DNA from: an uncultured Nitrospira sp.
GTDB lineage: Bacteria > Nitrospirota > Nitrospiria > Nitrospirales > Nitrospiraceae
Assembly: GCA_902500825.1 (NCBI GenBank)
Contig: CABVRX010000022.1
Location: 1 to 62,238 of the forward strand
Direction: 5' to 3'
Length of the DNA: 62,238 nucleotides
A model generated the notes under the pieces. It searched no databases. It worked only from the letters and a program-made list of their open reading frames with translations, and was not told the DNA's origin. Position numbers and translations under genes: made by a program. Shown here in pieces: positions 55,605 through 62,238 of the stretch (the first letter of the stretch is position 1; each line of letters begins with the position of its first letter).

Positions 55605-58262
55605 ATGTCTGAGTCGATCCCCGCCGGAAAAACGTTCTATCTGATCGATGGCAGCGCCTACATTTATCGGGCGTTCTTTGCCCTGCCCGCCCTCAATAAC
55701 TCGAAAGGCCTCCAAACCAACGCGATCTACGGATTCATGACCACGCTCCTCAAGATTATCCGCGAGCACAAGCCGGATAGTCTCGTGGTGGCGTTCGACG
55801 AAAAGGGTCCGACGCTTCGGCACGAAGAATTCAAAGAATATAAAGCGCAGCGTCCGCCGATGCCGGACGGGATGAAAGCGCAGATTCCCTATATTCATCG
55901 CGTAGTGGACGCGCTGAATATCCCTGCGGTCAGACAGGCCGGGTACGAAGCAGACGACCTTATCGGCACGTTGGCTCGACAGGCGGAGCGAGCAGGTTAC
56001 AACGTCGTGATCGTCACCGGCGATAAAGACATGCTCCAGCTTGTGACACCGCAGGTGCGAATTTATGATCCCGTGAAAGACAAGTGGTCGGGCGAAGCGG
56101 AATGTGTCGCCAAGTTCGGCGTCGAGCCGGCGCGGGTGATCGAAGTGATGGGCCTGATGGGAGACAGCAGCGACAACATCCCTGGGGTGAAAGGGATCGG
56201 CGAAAAAACCGCGATGAAGTTGCTCGCGCAGTTCGAGACCATCGACGAACTGCTCCGCCGCCTCGACGAGGTCACGCCGGCCCGCATCAAGACGCTCCTC
56301 ACCGAACAGGCGGACAACGCGCGGCTCAGTCGGAAGCTGGCGACCATCGATACTCAGAGCCCGGTAGAGTTCCACCCCGAGTCCTACCGAATCAGGCCGC
56401 TGCATGATGAACAACTCGCCGATCTGTTGCGCGAGCTGGAATTCACCTCCCTCCTCAAGAGTCTCCAGCCATCGCCCAAGCAGTCGGAGATGAAGATCGA
56501 TGAGACAGTCGTCATCGATGACGAGTCGGCTGCACAGCGTTTCGCGGACGGCCTTCCGAATGACATACCGCTCGGTGTGCGCTGTTTGCTGGCCGGCCAA
56601 CCTGGCGTCAATGCCGACGTTCTCGGCCTGACTCTTTCCACCGGTGAACAGACAGCCTTCATTCCAATCGACGTCCACACGTTCATGCGGCCTATCACGC
56701 AAGTCTTCCACGACAGACACAAACCCAAAATCGTGCACGACCTCAAATCCACCTTGCTGGCCTTTCACAGGATCGGTGTCACCTTGGCCCCACCGCACGT
56801 GGACACGATGATCGCGGACTATCTGCTCAACCCCAACCGGCGCGACCATAGTCTTGAAACCATTGTGTTGGAGCGGTTGGGCGAACGGCTGGGATCAAAA
56901 GAACAGGAGAAGACGCAGCCACAGTCACTCTTCGAAGTCGACAGCGGTTCGCGCGAGGCAGCAGCGGAAGCCGCCGCCGTTCTGGCCAAGCTAGGACCGA
57001 TTCTGACAGAGCGGTTGACGGAACAAGGAAGCCTGAAACTCTTCACTGAAATCGAGATACCGCTCGTACCGGTCTTGGCCGACGTCGAGCGGAACGGGTT
57101 CTTACTCGATGTTGACGGGCTTCACACCTTAAGCAAAGAATTAGAACGAGAGCTCGACCGCATGATGGAAACCATCGCGAGGTTAGCCGGCATCGAATTC
57201 AACATCAATTCACCAAAACAACTGGCGGCGGTCCTATTCGAGAAGCTCGGCTTGAAGCCTCTGCGCAAGACCAAGACCGGGTATTCCACTGATGAAGATA
57301 CGCTCACACAACTGGCGGCGCAGCATGAGTTACCCGCACAGATTCTCAATTACCGAAGCCTCAGCAAGCTCAAGTCGACTTACGTGGATGCGCTGCCTGA
57401 GCTGGTACATCCTGAGACGAAGCGACTCCACACGTCCTTGAACCAGACCGTCGCTGCAACCGGACGCCTCTCATCCACCGACCCGAATCTCCAAAACATC
57501 CCCGTGAAGGGTGACTACGGCCTCCGTATTCGCGAGGCCTTCATCGTCCCTAAAGACCACGAACTCCTCTGTGCCGACTACAGTCAGATCGAACCGCGCA
57601 TCCTCGCCCATCTCTCACAAGATCCTCGCTTGCTGTCCGTCTTTACCAAAGGCGAGGACATCCACATGGCGACGGCCATGGAAATCTTCGGCCTCCCCTC
57701 TAGTCAGATCACGAGAGACATGCGCCGTACAGCCAAGACCGTCGTCTTCGGCATCGTCTACGGTATCAGTCCATTCGGTCTCTCTCAAAACCTCGGCGTA
57801 CCTCAAGCCGAAGCAAAGCAATATATCGAAACGTTCTTTGAGCGGTTCCCGGCAGTGCGTGCCCTCATGGATCGGAACATCGCTGAAGGACGGGAGAAAG
57901 GTTACACCACCACGATCCTCGGCCGCCGACGTCCCATTCCCGAGTTGCAGAGCAGCGATCCGGTACAGCGTGGCTTCGGCGAGCGGATGGCGGTGAATAG
58001 CCCCATCCAAGGTTCCGCTGCCGACTTGATTAAAGTCGCCATGATCAATACCCACAAGAAACTGCACGATGAACTACCGCACGTGAAGATGATCCTCCAA
58101 GTCCACGACGAACTCATTTTCGAAGTACCGGACCATGATCTGGAAGAAGCGAAGCGGCTGGTGAAGAGCGAGATGGAAGGTGTCGGCAAACAGTTGGGCC
58201 TATCGGTGCCGCTCAAGGTGGATCTCGGCGTGGGCAAAAACTGGCGCGTGGCTCATCCTTAA
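55605..58262 (+). CDS. polA: DNA polymerase I
   Basis: 885 residues from ATG 55605 (MSESIPAGKTFYLIDGSAYI); a TTG at 55593 is in frame. The 5'-3' exonuclease domain is complete (VVAFDEKGPTLRHEEFKEYK, YEADDLIGTL, VTGDKDMLQL, MGDSSDNIPG). The polymerase domain has motif A DYSQIEPRILAHLS, motif B RRTAKTVVFGIVYGIS and motif C QVHDELIFE. The middle proofreading domain keeps its fold but lacks the DxE of the first exonuclease motif (LGVRCLLAG stands there), so 3'-5' proofreading is probably lost, as in Taq polymerase. It fills gaps and removes RNA primers. Confidence 0.96.
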   Translation: MSESIPAGKTFYLIDGSAYIYRAFFALPALNNSKGLQTNAIYGFMTTLLKIIREHKPDSLVVAFDEKGPTLRHEEFKEYKAQRPPMPDGMKAQIPYIHRVVDALNIPAVRQAGYEADDLIGTLARQAERAGYNVVIVTGDKDMLQLVTPQVRIYDPVKDKWSGEAECVAKFGVEPARVIEVMGLMGDSSDNIPGVKGIGEKTAMKLLAQFETIDELLRRLDEVTPARIKTLLTEQADNARLSRKLATIDTQSPVEFHPESYRIRPLHDEQLADLLRELEFTSLLKSLQPSPKQSEMKIDETVVIDDESAAQRFADGLPNDIPLGVRCLLAGQPGVNADVLGLTLSTGEQTAFIPIDVHTFMRPITQVFHDRHKPKIVHDLKSTLLAFHRIGVTLAPPHVDTMIADYLLNPNRRDHSLETIVLERLGERLGSKEQEKTQPQSLFEVDSGSREAAAEAAAVLAKLGPILTERLTEQGSLKLFTEIEIPLVPVLADVERNGFLLDVDGLHTLSKELERELDRMMETIARLAGIEFNINSPKQLAAVLFEKLGLKPLRKTKTGYSTDEDTLTQLAAQHELPAQILNYRSLSKLKSTYVDALPELVHPETKRLHTSLNQTVAATGRLSSTDPNLQNIPVKGDYGLRIREAFIVPKDHELLCADYSQIEPRILAHLSQDPRLLSVFTKGEDIHMATAMEIFGLPSSQITRDMRRTAKTVVFGIVYGISPFGLSQNLGVPQAEAKQYIETFFERFPAVRALMDRNIAEGREKGYTTTILGRRRPIPELQSSDPVQRGFGERMAVNSPIQGSAADLIKVAMINTHKKLHDELPHVKMILQVHDELIFEVPDHDLEEAKRLVKSEMEGVGKQLGLSVPLKVDLGVGKNWRVAHP

Positions 58263-58286
58263 TCTGTAACTTATGCGAGGTGATCT

Positions 58287-58544
58287 ATGCTGACCATACG
58301 TATTTCAGTTGCGTGGACTATAGCAGTCGTCAGCCTTGGAGCTCTAGGATTTGCAGTTCTTCTCGGCCAACCGTTCGCAGCAAAAGCGCAGGAGTCAAAA
58401 CGGTTTCAGTACATGATCGTCGAGGTGCTGCCTGACACCCAGAATATGCAAACTAAGCTGAACGAGTTTGGAGCAAGCGGCTGGGAGCTGGTGGCGGTCT
58501 CGATGGGCAGCATGACGGAGCCGAGGCTGGTCTTTAAGAAGTGA
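58287..58544 (+). CDS. Small exported DUF4177-like protein
   Basis: 85 residues. A signal peptide (AVVSLGALGFAVLLGQPFAAKA) is followed by a small domain ending LNEFGASGWELVAVSMG and a terminal FKK, the pattern of DUF4177-like proteins. GAGGTGAT precedes the ATG. It lies 24 bp after polA. Confidence 0.75.
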   Translation: MLTIRISVAWTIAVVSLGALGFAVLLGQPFAAKAQESKRFQYMIVEVLPDTQNMQTKLNEFGASGWELVAVSMGSMTEPRLVFKK

Positions 58545-58630
58545 CTCTGAAAGGGTGTTAGAGCTGAGTCGGCAGAAATCCTGGATCGACGCTACCGTCT
58601 TTCGAACTCGAGGCAACTTCACATAATGGC

Positions 58631-58657
58631 CACCCGCTGACTCTTAATCAGCGGGTG
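58631..58657. terminator. Hairpin between convergent genes
   Basis: CACCCGCTGA (58631-58640) and TCAGCGGGTG (58648-58657) form a perfect 10-bp stem with a 7-base loop. The stem encodes the last residues of the minus-strand gene, whose stop lies in the loop. No T-run follows on either strand, so the terminator function is uncertain. Confidence 0.5.
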
Positions 58658-59033
58658 CGCCTTGCCACAACATGTCATAGCCGAGTTCCTTGGTTTCCGA
58701 GCACATGTTCACCAAGGATGAAAATTTGGCGGTAAATACTTCGTCGGCATGGGACTTCTCGTGAGCCTCAAAAGACCGCCAGTAGGTCACAATGGCGTAA
58801 TGTTCGTCGGTGGTCTTATGGTCGATCAGCGAGCCTTCATCAGACACGAAGCCGGAGAACTTGAAGACTTGTCCGGCCAGGAAGCCCCCTTTCTCACCGC
58901 CGTAGGTTTCCTTGACGACCATGCACATTTCTCCGACAGCCAACTCGACGTCCTCGAAACTGACGCCGGGTTTCAGCTTCACGGTATTGAACAACATCTT
59001 GGCTCCAAACGGCAGCGTAATTGGGCCGAACAT
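58644..59033 (-). CDS. Small dimeric alpha/beta-barrel protein, similar to ABM or half of sulfur oxygenase reductase
   Basis: 129 residues from ATG 59033, which has a perfect AGGAGG; 27 upstream in-frame codons are not needed. The domain has the ferredoxin-like layout of antibiotic-biosynthesis monooxygenases, with YAIVTYWRSFEAHEKSHADE near residues 79-98. Two features also recall sulfur oxygenase reductase: a cysteine in VGEMCMVVKE (C37), like the persulfide cysteine in KVCMVTARHPGF, and H91-x3-H95, like its two iron-binding histidines 54-55 residues further on. The third ligand (a glutamate) could be E113 or E116 but the spacing is not exact. So either an ABM-like enzyme or a single-domain relative of sulfur oxygenase reductase. 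Confidence 0.6.
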   Translation of the reverse strand: MFGPITLPFGAKMLFNTVKLKPGVSFEDVELAVGEMCMVVKETYGGEKGGFLAGQVFKFSGFVSDEGSLIDHKTTDEHYAIVTYWRSFEAHEKSHADEVFTAKFSSLVNMCSETKELGYDMLWQGAPAD

Positions 59034-59138
59034 GTGAACCTCCTGTGAAAGGCATACTCGGTTCGGGAACAAGTCAAAATCTATCTCCTGATTCCGACAG
59101 TATATCCGGCTCATATAGATAGTTTACCAGGAGGCCAT

Positions 59139-59546
59139 TCACCTCTTCTTCCCGCATACAAATTGCGCAACCGATTGTGCCAAGGTTCCTCGCGGAATGG
59201 GCGCCCAATCTGACTCGCCTGACGTTTTATACAGCGCCTCACCAGATCCCATATTCCCCGAGAAATATTCCAACGCCAGCAACCGAAATCGCTCTTTGGC
59301 ACAGTCATGCTCTTCGTGTGCACGCGTGGACAAGTATTTCCTGAACCCTCGTGTCTGAGCGGTCTTCAGATCATCAGCGACCCACACTCGAACCCACTCG
59401 CCTTTTCGGCTGATGGTCTCAGTATCGACATAGACTTTTGCTTTGTCATTGCCGTCGACAAGTAGCCACTCGGCAGAGACAGGCACCGCACCCCAGAACA
59501 GAAGAATGGCCAACGCGAGGAGGATTCTCGGCAGGAGCGTTCGAAC
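59139..59546 (-). CDS. Surface-adhesin-E-like exported protein with an odd start
   Basis: About 135 residues if translation begins at 59546. The mature part has W-LVDGNDKAKVYVDTETI, HEEHDCAKERFRLLALEYF and WAPIPRGTLAQSVAQFVC, the pattern of surface-adhesin protein E relatives, with two conserved cysteines. A perfect AAGGAGG is followed seven bases later by GTT, which begins a typical signal peptide (xRTLLPRILLALAILLFWG). The first standard start is TTG at 59513, which would leave an unusually short signal without a basic end. GTT may be a mutated GTG or ATG. It is downstream of the small membrane protein gene. Confidence 0.65.
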   Translation of the reverse strand, partial: VRTLLPRILLALAILLFWGAVPVSAEWLLVDGNDKAKVYVDTETISRKGEWVRVWVADDLKTAQTRGFRKYLSTRAHEEHDCAKERFRLLALEYFSGNMGSGEALYKTSGESDWAPIPRGTLAQSVAQFVCGKKR

Positions 59547-59558
59547 GGAAAAACCTCC

Positions 59559-59804
59559 TTATGGCTGTTTCGGATCGCCCAACTTTCTGGTCAAGCAGTC
59601 GTTAAACGCCATGCGCCGGTGATAGGGCGTCCAAAACCAGTTGTATTTCTTCAACATATCCAACTCATCCACGTATTCATTACAACGCTTCGCTTCGACC
59701 GCTCCGGCTTCCAGTGGAGCAGTCATCACCCAGGCCCCAATCCCAATGACACTAAAAAAGAGAGTGACACCGACAACGAGCATCACGATTCCTTTTGTAT
59801 TCAT
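59559..59804 (-). CDS. Small membrane protein
   Basis: 81 residues, not recognised. One transmembrane helix (VMLVVGVTLFFSVIGIGAWV) is followed by a short soluble part with two cysteines (KRCNEYVDEL, FNDCLTRKLG). GAGGG lies seven bases before the ATG. The stop TAA is part of the AAGGAGG ribosome binding site of the next gene, showing tight coupling. Confidence 0.7.
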   Translation of the reverse strand: MNTKGIVMLVVGVTLFFSVIGIGAWVMTAPLEAGAVEAKRCNEYVDELDMLKKYNWFWTPYHRRMAFNDCLTRKLGDPKQP

Positions 59805-59853
59805 GAATCCCTCTATAGGTTCATTTGCAACAAATACCTGACTCTCATGTGAC

Positions 59854-59868
59854 TGGTGCCGGAGACCG
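59854..59868 (+). repeat. 15-bp copy of a tRNA-Leu 3' end, possible attachment site
   Basis: TGGTGCCGGAGACCG is identical to 62184-62198, the 3' end of the tRNA-Leu gene on the minus strand, in the same orientation. Such copies arise when an element integrates at a tRNA 3' end. No integrase is seen between the two copies. Confidence 0.55.
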
Positions 59869-60108
59869 AGTGAGACCTCAGACCTCAGTCCATCAGAAGT
59901 CCTTGATTATGCTATGGGTGCGTTTTGCTGAAACTGGAAGTATGTACCACACTGGATGAGGAATTGTGTACCACCTACACGGGCTTTCGGACATAGAGGG
60001 AAATTTTGTGGATCACCTACCCGCTTTGCCCAAGGTCGAGCCGGCCTCGGCCTGCGCTGAGCCAGCTTGCACTCTTTTCCTATCACACTTAGAATTCCAC
60101 CCCTGCTT

Positions 60109-60492
60109 ATGTTTGAAACAATCATTGCTACGCTCATTACTTCCTTCCTCGGCTTACTGGCATTCCTTGCATACCGATACCCTGAATGGTTTGGGCGCAT
60201 TAATTTTGTTCTTCTTCCGCTTTCCGTATTGGGCGGGGGATTCCTAATTGGTTGGGATAACGCGATTACCGAATCTACCTTACGCCTAGAACGCCTGTTT
60301 TCAGACGATGAACATAAGATAGGCCAACGCGCAATTTCACAGGTTAATGGGCTTGCGTCACCCATCTGGGCCTATGCCGCTCTGTTTGGGTGGTTAGTGT
60401 ATCTTGCGGTGCTGACTGCATTACCTTGGATTCTCAAGTTTACTTCGTCGCACTCCACAAGATTGCCGGTATCTCCCAAGAAAAAACATTAG
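60109..60492 (+). CDS. Hypothetical membrane protein
   Basis: 127 residues from ATG 60109, not recognised. Three hydrophobic segments are seen: IIATLITSFLGLLAFLAY, INFVLLPLSVLGGGFLIG and IWAYAALFGWLVYLAVLTAL. A charged loop (RLERLFSDDEHKIGQRA) lies between the second and third, and the tail is basic (PVSPKKKH). Its composition appears more AT-rich than the neighbouring housekeeping genes. It is inside the interval bounded by the 15-bp direct repeats, which fits a transferred gene. Confidence 0.6.
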   Translation: MFETIIATLITSFLGLLAFLAYRYPEWFGRINFVLLPLSVLGGGFLIGWDNAITESTLRLERLFSDDEHKIGQRAISQVNGLASPIWAYAALFGWLVYLAVLTALPWILKFTSSHSTRLPVSPKKKH

Positions 60493-61076
60493 TCGCTCAG
60501 TTGAAGGCCTGGGCAACACGTTGGGCGGGTATGTTTGTTGGCTAACCAGTTAAGGTGCATCTGGTTTATTGTTGAACACGTGAGTAAAAATATCTCGTGC
60601 TATAGTAGCTGTACTGAGAACGCTTAAATCAGGGCGCGTTCCTGGTTCTTCAATTGAAGATGCCGTGTGCGAGTATATCCTGAGAAATGTCTATGGGATT
60701 TCCTGGTTGGGGGTGGGGCTGGTGGCGAAGCGTCTTCGCTACGCTCAGGACCTTTTCAGCCACGAGAGAAAGCCTTGATCCAGGATGGAATATACCCACA
60801 CACAGCCCCTATAGTGGTCCACATAATAAATTCACGTGTAATCGCAAAGTCTTAAGTGGAATGTTATCACCCCCACTTCAAATTTGGACCTTTTCCGCAT
60901 CGTTTTATCGTCGAAAATCAGAAGAGACGCATAAACACTGAAAAGTTATCCCCCCCACTCTCGATTTCATAGGCCAGCCAGGAACCACGGCATGCGGACC
61001 TCCTCTAAAGCCCAATAGCAGATCGATTCCGCTTCCTCCTAGAATCTGCCTCTTCATACACAGAGGAGTGTACTGT
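60493..61076. other. Intergenic stretch in the repeat-bounded interval
   Basis: 584 bp without a confident gene. It contains a small GCGAAG-CGT-CTTCGC hairpin near 60725 and two imperfect direct copies of GTTATC-CCCCCACT near 60865 and 60945. A 62-codon frame at 60667-60855 has no supporting signal. Confidence 0.4.
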
Positions 61077-61667
61077 ATGTTCGCACCGAAGGGGATTCTA
61101 GGCCCTGCAGCCGTCATCGTCTTAGGTACGGTGCTCACCGCATGTATCCACGAAAATAAGTATCGTGCAGAACTCGCCTCGCCGCTGAATAATGCGGAAA
61201 CAGGTGTCATCATCATTTCGGCAGGCTCGCCTACGCCCTGTCATGCTCTTGGTACGCCGACCGGGTTGCACATCCTTCCTGCGAGCGGGCCATTCTTCCC
61301 CTATCGAGCAGTTGCAACCCTGGAAGTCGATAGTCAGTATATGGAGAGTGACTTTCTTGACCACCATGGGGGCCTCTCTGTCCTCCAGTTGCCGCCTGGC
61401 AAGTATGTGCTCGTCCCCTTTGCGATGAACCCTTACGTGCATTATTTCAGACCACCCAAAGCAGATTTTGAAGTGTACGCCAATGAGACAGCCTATCTCG
61501 GTGAGTTCTTCATGCCAGCGTGTGAAGGAGATGCCGGAATGGGGTTTCTTGACCAGGAAGCACGGGACCTTGCTCTGCTTGTGGAAAAGAATCCGGCCTT
61601 TGCTAATGTGCCCATCACGAAACGACTCCTCATGTTCACAGGTCGCCAGCCGTTTTGGCCTTTCTAG
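61077..61667 (+). CDS. Hypothetical lipoprotein
   Basis: 196 residues, not recognised. ATG at 61077 follows GAGGAG with eight bases of spacing. A lipoprotein signal (AAVIVLGTVLTAC) is present, with the lipid-carrying cysteine at about residue 23. The mature part is beta-rich, with LQLPPGKYVLVPFAMNP suggesting a beta-sandwich of the kind often found in bacterial lipoproteins, then TAYLGEFFMPACEGDAGMG. Located in the repeat-bounded interval next to the tRNA-Leu gene. Confidence 0.7.
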   Translation: MFAPKGILGPAAVIVLGTVLTACIHENKYRAELASPLNNAETGVIIISAGSPTPCHALGTPTGLHILPASGPFFPYRAVATLEVDSQYMESDFLDHHGGLSVLQLPPGKYVLVPFAMNPYVHYFRPPKADFEVYANETAYLGEFFMPACEGDAGMGFLDQEARDLALLVEKNPAFANVPITKRLLMFTGRQPFWPF

Positions 61668-61680
61668 GCTTCTTCTAACC

Positions 61681-61874
61681 ATGTCCTTTGCACACCGCCT
61701 CCACTACCGCTTCTCGATCTTCAGTCCAGTAAGGTACAAAGTACGGTTTCGTGATGGCTATGGAACCGTGACGAATCTCTCCAATCGAGGATGGAGGGAG
61801 AATCTACGGCAATGTGCCGGTCATCGTCGGCGATGTCTGCTCGCTGAAAGTCAGACTGACAACTAGGAACTGAG
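61681..61874 (+). pseudogene. Frameshifted, truncated PilZ-domain gene
   Basis: From 61681 the frame reads HYRFSIFSPVRYKVRFRDG and GTVTNLSNRG, with the PilZ signature RxxxR and N-x-S-x2-G, and then the reading shifts. The neighbouring frame continues RIYGNVPVIVGDVCSLKVRL to TGA at 61872-61874. Joining the two gives a plausible PilZ N-terminal half; the C-terminal half of a normal PilZ domain is missing. PilZ domains bind cyclic di-GMP; this copy is probably dead. Confidence 0.7.
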
Positions 61875-62088
61875 TGTCTGTCTCGGCTGGGGTCGTGCGA
61901 TGGGTGTGCGGGGAAGAGTGCGGGATAGAAACATTGGTGATGAATGAGGAGTCACAGAAGCAATTGAGCGCCTATATCCAAGAGCGGGGCAGAGCGTTAT
62001 GAGTGAAGATCCGCCCAAACGTCAAAACATGTCGGCGCTCACAAACTATCACGCTCATGCTTTGACCTCTTTCTGAGACGTTACGAGG

Positions 62089-62178
62089 TCACTCCTTCCA
62101 CTTCCGCCATACCGCTACCACTAGATATATTAGTCCCACAATGATGCCCACTAAGACTGGTTCGATGATCCATGGCAT
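62089..62178 (-). CDS. Possible 29-residue single-helix membrane protein
   Basis: ATG at 62178 encodes MPWIIEPVLVGIIVGLIYLV followed by VAVWRKWKE and TGA at 62089-62091: one transmembrane helix and a basic end. It starts six bases after the tRNA-Leu 3' end. No ribosome binding site is visible because the upstream sequence is the tRNA itself. Translation is uncertain. Confidence 0.3.
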   Translation of the reverse strand: MPWIIEPVLVGIIVGLIYLVVAVWRKWKE

Positions 62179-62183
62179 ACAGG

Positions 62184-62238
62184 TGGTGCCGGAGACCGGG
62201 ATCGAACCGGTACGGGCCTTTTGAGCCCGAGGGATTTT
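62184..62238 (-). tRNA. tRNA-Leu, 3' part, cut by window edge
   Basis: On the minus strand the sequence ends with GTTCGATCCCGGTCTCCGGCACCA: a T-arm, acceptor 3' strand and encoded CCA at 62184-62186. A long variable arm with GGGCTCAAAAGGCCC shows a class II tRNA, and AAAATCCC just before it is typical of the leucine anticodon arm. The anticodon itself is outside the window. Confidence 0.8.

Follow-up and report, generated by a model that had tools for sequence, protein, structure and literature searches.

Several kinds of integrative elements described at RNA genes provide a framework for the locus studied here. The genomic islands collected by Islander are defined as insertions at the 3′ end of a tRNA gene, with the tRNA gene restored at one end, its displaced 3′ fragment, oriented alike, at the opposite end and an integrase gene inside (PMC4383910). 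The crossovers outlined in the same description are located either in the anticodon loop or further 3′, in the T loop or the T–acceptor junction (PMC4383910). CIMEs, as introduced in PMC5704250, are elements that have kept their att repeats and in which the integration and transfer genes are gone. In the account of the ssrA islands of Dehalococcoides, some of the segments between repeats of the RNA-gene 3′ end are likewise without an integration module (PMC3146451).

The window, i.e. the whole stretch of DNA that was analysed, is 62,238 nucleotides long and corresponds to contig C22 of an uncultured Nitrospira genome (3.79 Mb in 50 contigs). It contains two exact 15-bp copies of TGGTGCCGGAGACCG in the same orientation, at 59854-59868 and 62184-62198, as reported in an earlier note on this DNA, which had attributed them to the 3′ end of a tRNA-Leu gene. 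Read by eye, the repeat is composed of the CCA, the discriminator, seven acceptor bases and four T stem bases. A search for TGGTGCCGGAGACCG allowing two mismatches gave three matches in the window against 0.18 expected from shuffles, and a repeat search of the window returned the pair as a two-copy family with a spacing of 2330. The two copies form the identical ends of a 2,315-bp interval. The tRNA-Leu gene is cut off by the end of C22 at position 62238, which places the right junction 55 bp from the contig end and explains why ARAGORN makes no call for this tRNA in the window. Contig C15, from the same genome, completes the gene; it opens with the 35 bp with which the window closes. The features of the locus are as follows.

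59139..59513, minus strand: Adhesin_E-family gene of the left flank, whose position beside the tRNA is conserved in the genus (Pfam PF16747, E 2.6e-30; synteny).
59559..59804, minus strand: 81-aa gene of the left flank, adjoining the tRNA in those relatives whose site is empty (gene-order test).
59854..59868, minus strand: displaced 15-bp copy of the tRNA-Leu 3′ end, forming the left junction (exact repeat; flank matches of 16 empty genomes stop here, with a 15-bp overlap with the tRNA match).
59869..62183, no strand: inserted DNA of 2,315 bp without an integrase (absent between flank and tRNA in relatives; the PF00589 matches of the genome are all on other contigs).
60109..60492, plus strand: orphan 127-aa protein, probably membrane-bound (by eye), with no relative in 78 other genus genomes and no Pfam match over the cut-off.
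61077..61667, plus strand: putative lipoprotein of 196 aa (by eye), intact, with relatives in genomes G090 and G016 and dN far below dS.
61681..62002, plus strand: PilZ pseudogene with a frame change and an in-frame stop (frame translations against the intact gene of G077).
61999..62076, plus strand: start of a gene, cut short here, whose counterpart in G077 overlaps PilZ (MNDDRPKRE... family; frame translation, with the intact neighbour at L067:6302-6655).
62089..62178, minus strand: single-helix-like ORF of 29 aa, conserved elsewhere in the genus (relatives; DNA matches ending at 62178).
62184..62238, minus strand: last 55 nt of tRNA-Leu(UAA), of which 62184-62198 are the second 15-bp copy (5′ part on C15; anticodon taa by ARAGORN in relatives).

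Compared with the Islander islands as defined in PMC4383910, the islet has the full tRNA, the 3′ fragment in the same orientation and an empty site in relatives, but no integrase gene, a lack that keeps it from counting as an intact island under that definition. It resembles the CIMEs of PMC5704250 in that integration and transfer genes are absent and integrase-bearing elements occupy the same site in relatives; its identical 15-bp ends are candidate att repeats. CIMEs derive from an ICE or IME by decay and can be moved by accretion with an integrating element. The islet may work like a CIME, and be one. The repeats are short both in the ssrA islands (20 bp) and in the Nitrospira islet (15 bp), but the Dehalococcoides system in PMC3146451 combines a serine recombinase with a tmRNA gene, whereas the Nitrospira relatives combine tyrosine recombinases with tRNA-Leu. 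As they are presented in that source, those ssrA islands that lack an integration module come closest to the islet among the systems compared. The locus is an integrase-less, CIME-like tRNA islet at a tRNA-Leu(UAA) hotspot, ordinary in kind.

The evidence for an insertion comes from the relatives. In a search of 79 genus genomes (own included), the match to the left flank stops exactly at 59868 in 19 other genomes. In 16 of them the flank and tRNA matches overlap by exactly 15 bp, i.e. the left flank runs straight into tRNA-Leu(UAA) (G016, G081, G001, G039, G020, G061, G091, G084, G013, G052, G075, G018, G012, G010, G005 and G045); the three others (G017, G082 and G083) have their own elements at the site. 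A gene-based test, which looks at the position of the 81-aa flank gene relative to the full tRNA, was applied to 62 of the 78 other genus genomes, the 16 without a locus with a close tRNA match being left out. It found the site empty in 51 of the 62, with 44-194 bp between gene and tRNA, and occupied in six (G017, G004, G080, G082, G083 and G087); G014, G041, G055, G057 and G089 were unclassed (contig ends, a different neighbour gene or no fragment). Since relatives have an unoccupied site by both approaches, the 2,315 bp between the copies are an insertion. The comparison of the tRNA-Leu locus proposed in the earlier note has thus turned up the empty site, and conserved core, which would have contradicted its reading, is rejected for the interval. 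A flank tree was built from 41 rows; besides G074 and the window, it comprises only loci in which the two flank genes are both present and span 500-1100 bp. It places the window genome in a clade of eight with a support of 0.92; six members of this clade are empty, and in G074, which also belongs to it, the contig stops just before the repeat. Gain in the lineage of the window genome is the simplest reading.

The 3′ end of tRNA-Leu(UAA) is an insertion hotspot in the genus, occupied differently across genomes. The earlier note had suggested looking for larger elements, and larger ones with a tyrosine integrase do exist at this tRNA end, in G017, G004 and G080; the segments in G082, G083 and G087 are integrase-free. 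In G017, about 10.4 kb separate a 62-bp tRNA fragment from the full tRNA, with a 365-aa tyrosine integrase adjoining the tRNA, a DUF3631 protein and a weak match to a terminase small subunit. In G004, the flank and a 58-bp fragment are on one contig, and an integrase with 67% identity to that of G017 adjoins the full tRNA on another. The 12.7-kb element of G080 (L061:3554-16391, G080:C22), which encodes another integrase together with a resolvase and a TIR-domain protein, adjoins the tail of a second element; the integrase end of the latter is 94% identical to that of G017. The 12.7-kb element also contains an internal-virion-like protein and PilZ-like (by eye) and Adhesin_E-like genes, and cargo of these kinds recurs around the tRNA-Leu(UAA) site. 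In G083 (L094:1677-9692, G083:C24), two tandem segments lie between 57- and 58-bp tRNA-Leu fragments, one with an amidohydrolase and the other with a 1454-aa sensor-kinase-like protein (kinase by eye); the layout is the same in G082. No integrase was found in either array by tblastn with three integrases, nor, for G083, in the ORF list, nor among the PF00589 matches listed, at least 25 for each of the two genomes. The segment of G087 comprises 5.7 kb with ABC-transporter genes (by eye), and its tRNA fragment measures 26 bp at 92%; searches for an integrase in this segment found none, and its insertion point is supported by a neighbour gene common to G087 and G055. Except in G087, the duplicated tRNA fragment of the other elements measures 57-62 bp and reaches the anticodon loop, compared with 15 bp in the window. 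In addition, G041 (L075:7461-8127) has a pair of tRNA-Leu(taa) calls separated by 580 bp, of which the upstream call is a diverged full gene; an insertion may have replaced or duplicated the tRNA there.

The cargo of the islet only partly corresponds to the orphan genes announced in the earlier note. The description is right for the 127-aa protein, relatives of which were found in none of the 78 other genus genomes, nor in wider genome contigs or viral contigs. It is wrong for the 196-aa lipoprotein, which has relatives in four of the 78, with long matches in G090 and G016 and short 3′ matches in G082 and G083. A wider set of genome contigs gave two loci only, apparently those of G090 and G016, and no relatives were found in viral contigs. 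With a dN of 0.22 and a dS of 1.5 against G090 (0.26 and 1.2, respectively, against G016), the gene of the putative lipoprotein is intact and constrained; single-sequence structure prediction gave a mean pLDDT of 29 for the protein. Neither of the two intact proteins matches a defence family or an NCBIfam family. The broken PilZ gene of the earlier note is borne out by the intact relative in G077, against which it shows both the frame change and the in-frame stop. Close relatives of the tRNA-adjoining 29-aa ORF (MPWIIEPVLVG...) occur in G012, G074 and G082, where they occupy unrelated loci, and DNA matches stop at 62178 in G012, G074, G082 and G083; the ORF possibly represents a small membrane protein family of the genus. 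Since relatives have pieces of the interval elsewhere in their genomes, the islet consists of genes that are accessory in the genus. Another hint of this is that in G016 (L025:3414-5200, G016:C13) the lipoprotein gene adjoins a transposase-like gene (by eye). We suspect insertion-sequence ends near 59940-60010; the transposase copy in G016 offered no exact 12-mer inverted repeat for comparison with them. The G+C content of the interval is 50.4%, versus 55.5% for the window, and equal-sized windows range from 49.0 to 61.0%, which is no strong evidence. An RNA gene near the interval was rejected, as 58000-62238 has no Rfam match at E up to 1.

With four integrases as queries, blastp gave no match in the window, and neither C22 nor C15 has a PF00589 match. 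The whole genome has six such matches, all off these two contigs, and the best matches between its integrases and the tRNA-Leu integrases of the relatives are only 25-30% identical. According to the ORF list and the family searches, the interval contains no integration or transfer genes. Viral contigs gave no circular junction, and neither a second copy nor a parent element with the same ends was found. Elsewhere in the genome, a 399-aa integrase directly adjoins tRNA-Lys(ctt) on C45 (L100:2377-3774, G000:C45), which is a second tRNA site used by an element. The integrase contig C40 was considered as a hidden element between C22 and C15 and rejected, having zero 14-mers in common with the window end or the C15 start. 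Phage satellites are defined by phage-related or packaging genes. The interval has no phage or plasmid DNA match, so that an origin from either was rejected at the DNA level, and a PHROG search with the two intact proteins gave a single weak match (E 0.0043, topoisomerase family), too unconvincing for a phage satellite. The scar of an integrated element, or minimal satellite without an integrase, proposed in the earlier note is retained as regards the insertion and the missing integrase, and is unsupported in the phage-satellite sense.

Three further readings deny that an integrative element was inserted by site-specific recombination, and all of them appear very improbable. That a 2.3-kb piece was misjoined at the tRNA end during assembly could be suggested by the contig terminating within the tRNA, the first 74 bp of whose end are exactly identical in twenty genus genomes, enough to fork a metagenome assembly. 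The stop of C22, 55 bases into this shared stretch, would fit an assembler with an overlap of 55. Yet the left junction shares only 15 bp, under any usual assembler overlap, and the contig is unbroken there; moreover, C15 suits as the continuation of C22, its first 4 kb also following the tRNA in G013 and G039 (gene order of relatives). We regard such a chimera as very unlikely. Slightly less credible still is an ancestral interval lost from the relatives via recombination between the 15-bp copies: a clean empty site would result likewise, but many independent precise losses would be required, given the empty sites within the clade of eight and in the genus overall. We give equally little credence to a transposon-like insertion with a 15-bp target duplication, whether by a casposon or as another transposase product at the tRNA end. 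The islet has a 15-bp duplication at the tRNA-Leu 3′ end, and such duplications are known for casposons, the definition of which includes terminal inverted repeats. The best 20-bp end comparison is no better than shuffles, the repeat search gave no inverted repeats at the ends, and neither Cas1 nor a transposase is seen in the interval, which disfavours a casposon.

It is instead very likely that site-specific recombination brought a small integrative element into tRNA-Leu(UAA), at its 3′ end, and that the element is now without an integrase, as a remnant or a passenger islet. The crossover would have taken place within the 15-bp block that runs from the CCA end through discriminator and acceptor arm to the fourth T stem nucleotide; the element's own 15 bp would have rebuilt the tRNA gene, and the old end would have been displaced by 2.33 kb. 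The insertion was presumably made by a tyrosine recombinase, with a crossover probably of the T/acceptor-junction type. The present state would be that of a decayed remnant, or of a passenger islet with ends usable by an integrase in trans or in cis, as for a CIME. Decay, rather than movement in trans, may be behind the missing integrase; the sequence is compatible both with a decay product and with a minimal element that was mobilised in trans. Speaking against this explanation are a repeat shorter than the 57-62-bp fragments of most elements at the site, the lack of any integrase, circular junction or second same-ended copy among our finds, and a right junction so close to the contig end. 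The 15-bp repeat suits either a T/acceptor-junction crossover or a trimmed longer repeat. In the latter case, a special case of decay with the other integrase class, a G017-like anticodon-loop element would have lost some 45 bp of its fragment of about 60 bp, together with most of the element and the integrase, by deletion. Every integrase-bearing case at the site has a 58-62-bp fragment, and there are broken genes within the interval, so that this route deserves consideration, but we hold it to be rather unlikely: the integrase of G017 and G004 directly adjoins the full tRNA, which means that both element ends would need to be lost, and the short fragment of G087 suggests a second way of insertion. 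A different integrase class is thus weakly favoured over trimming. More speculatively, and with a small chance of being right, tRNA-Leu(UAA) could serve two traffic systems, namely integrase elements with a crossover close to the anticodon loop, and minimal islets that have short ends (15 bp in the window, 26 bp in G087) and no integrase, which would be travelling cargo cassettes crossing over in the T/acceptor region with a trans integrase.

No description of the tRNA-Leu(UAA) site in Nitrospira was found in titles and abstract openings of the open literature, which is no proof of novelty. The islet adds one more precisely mapped integrase-free case at a variably occupied tRNA-Leu(UAA) site. 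Finders that require an integrase miss such islets, whereas a 15-bp repeat and relatives suffice for their recognition.
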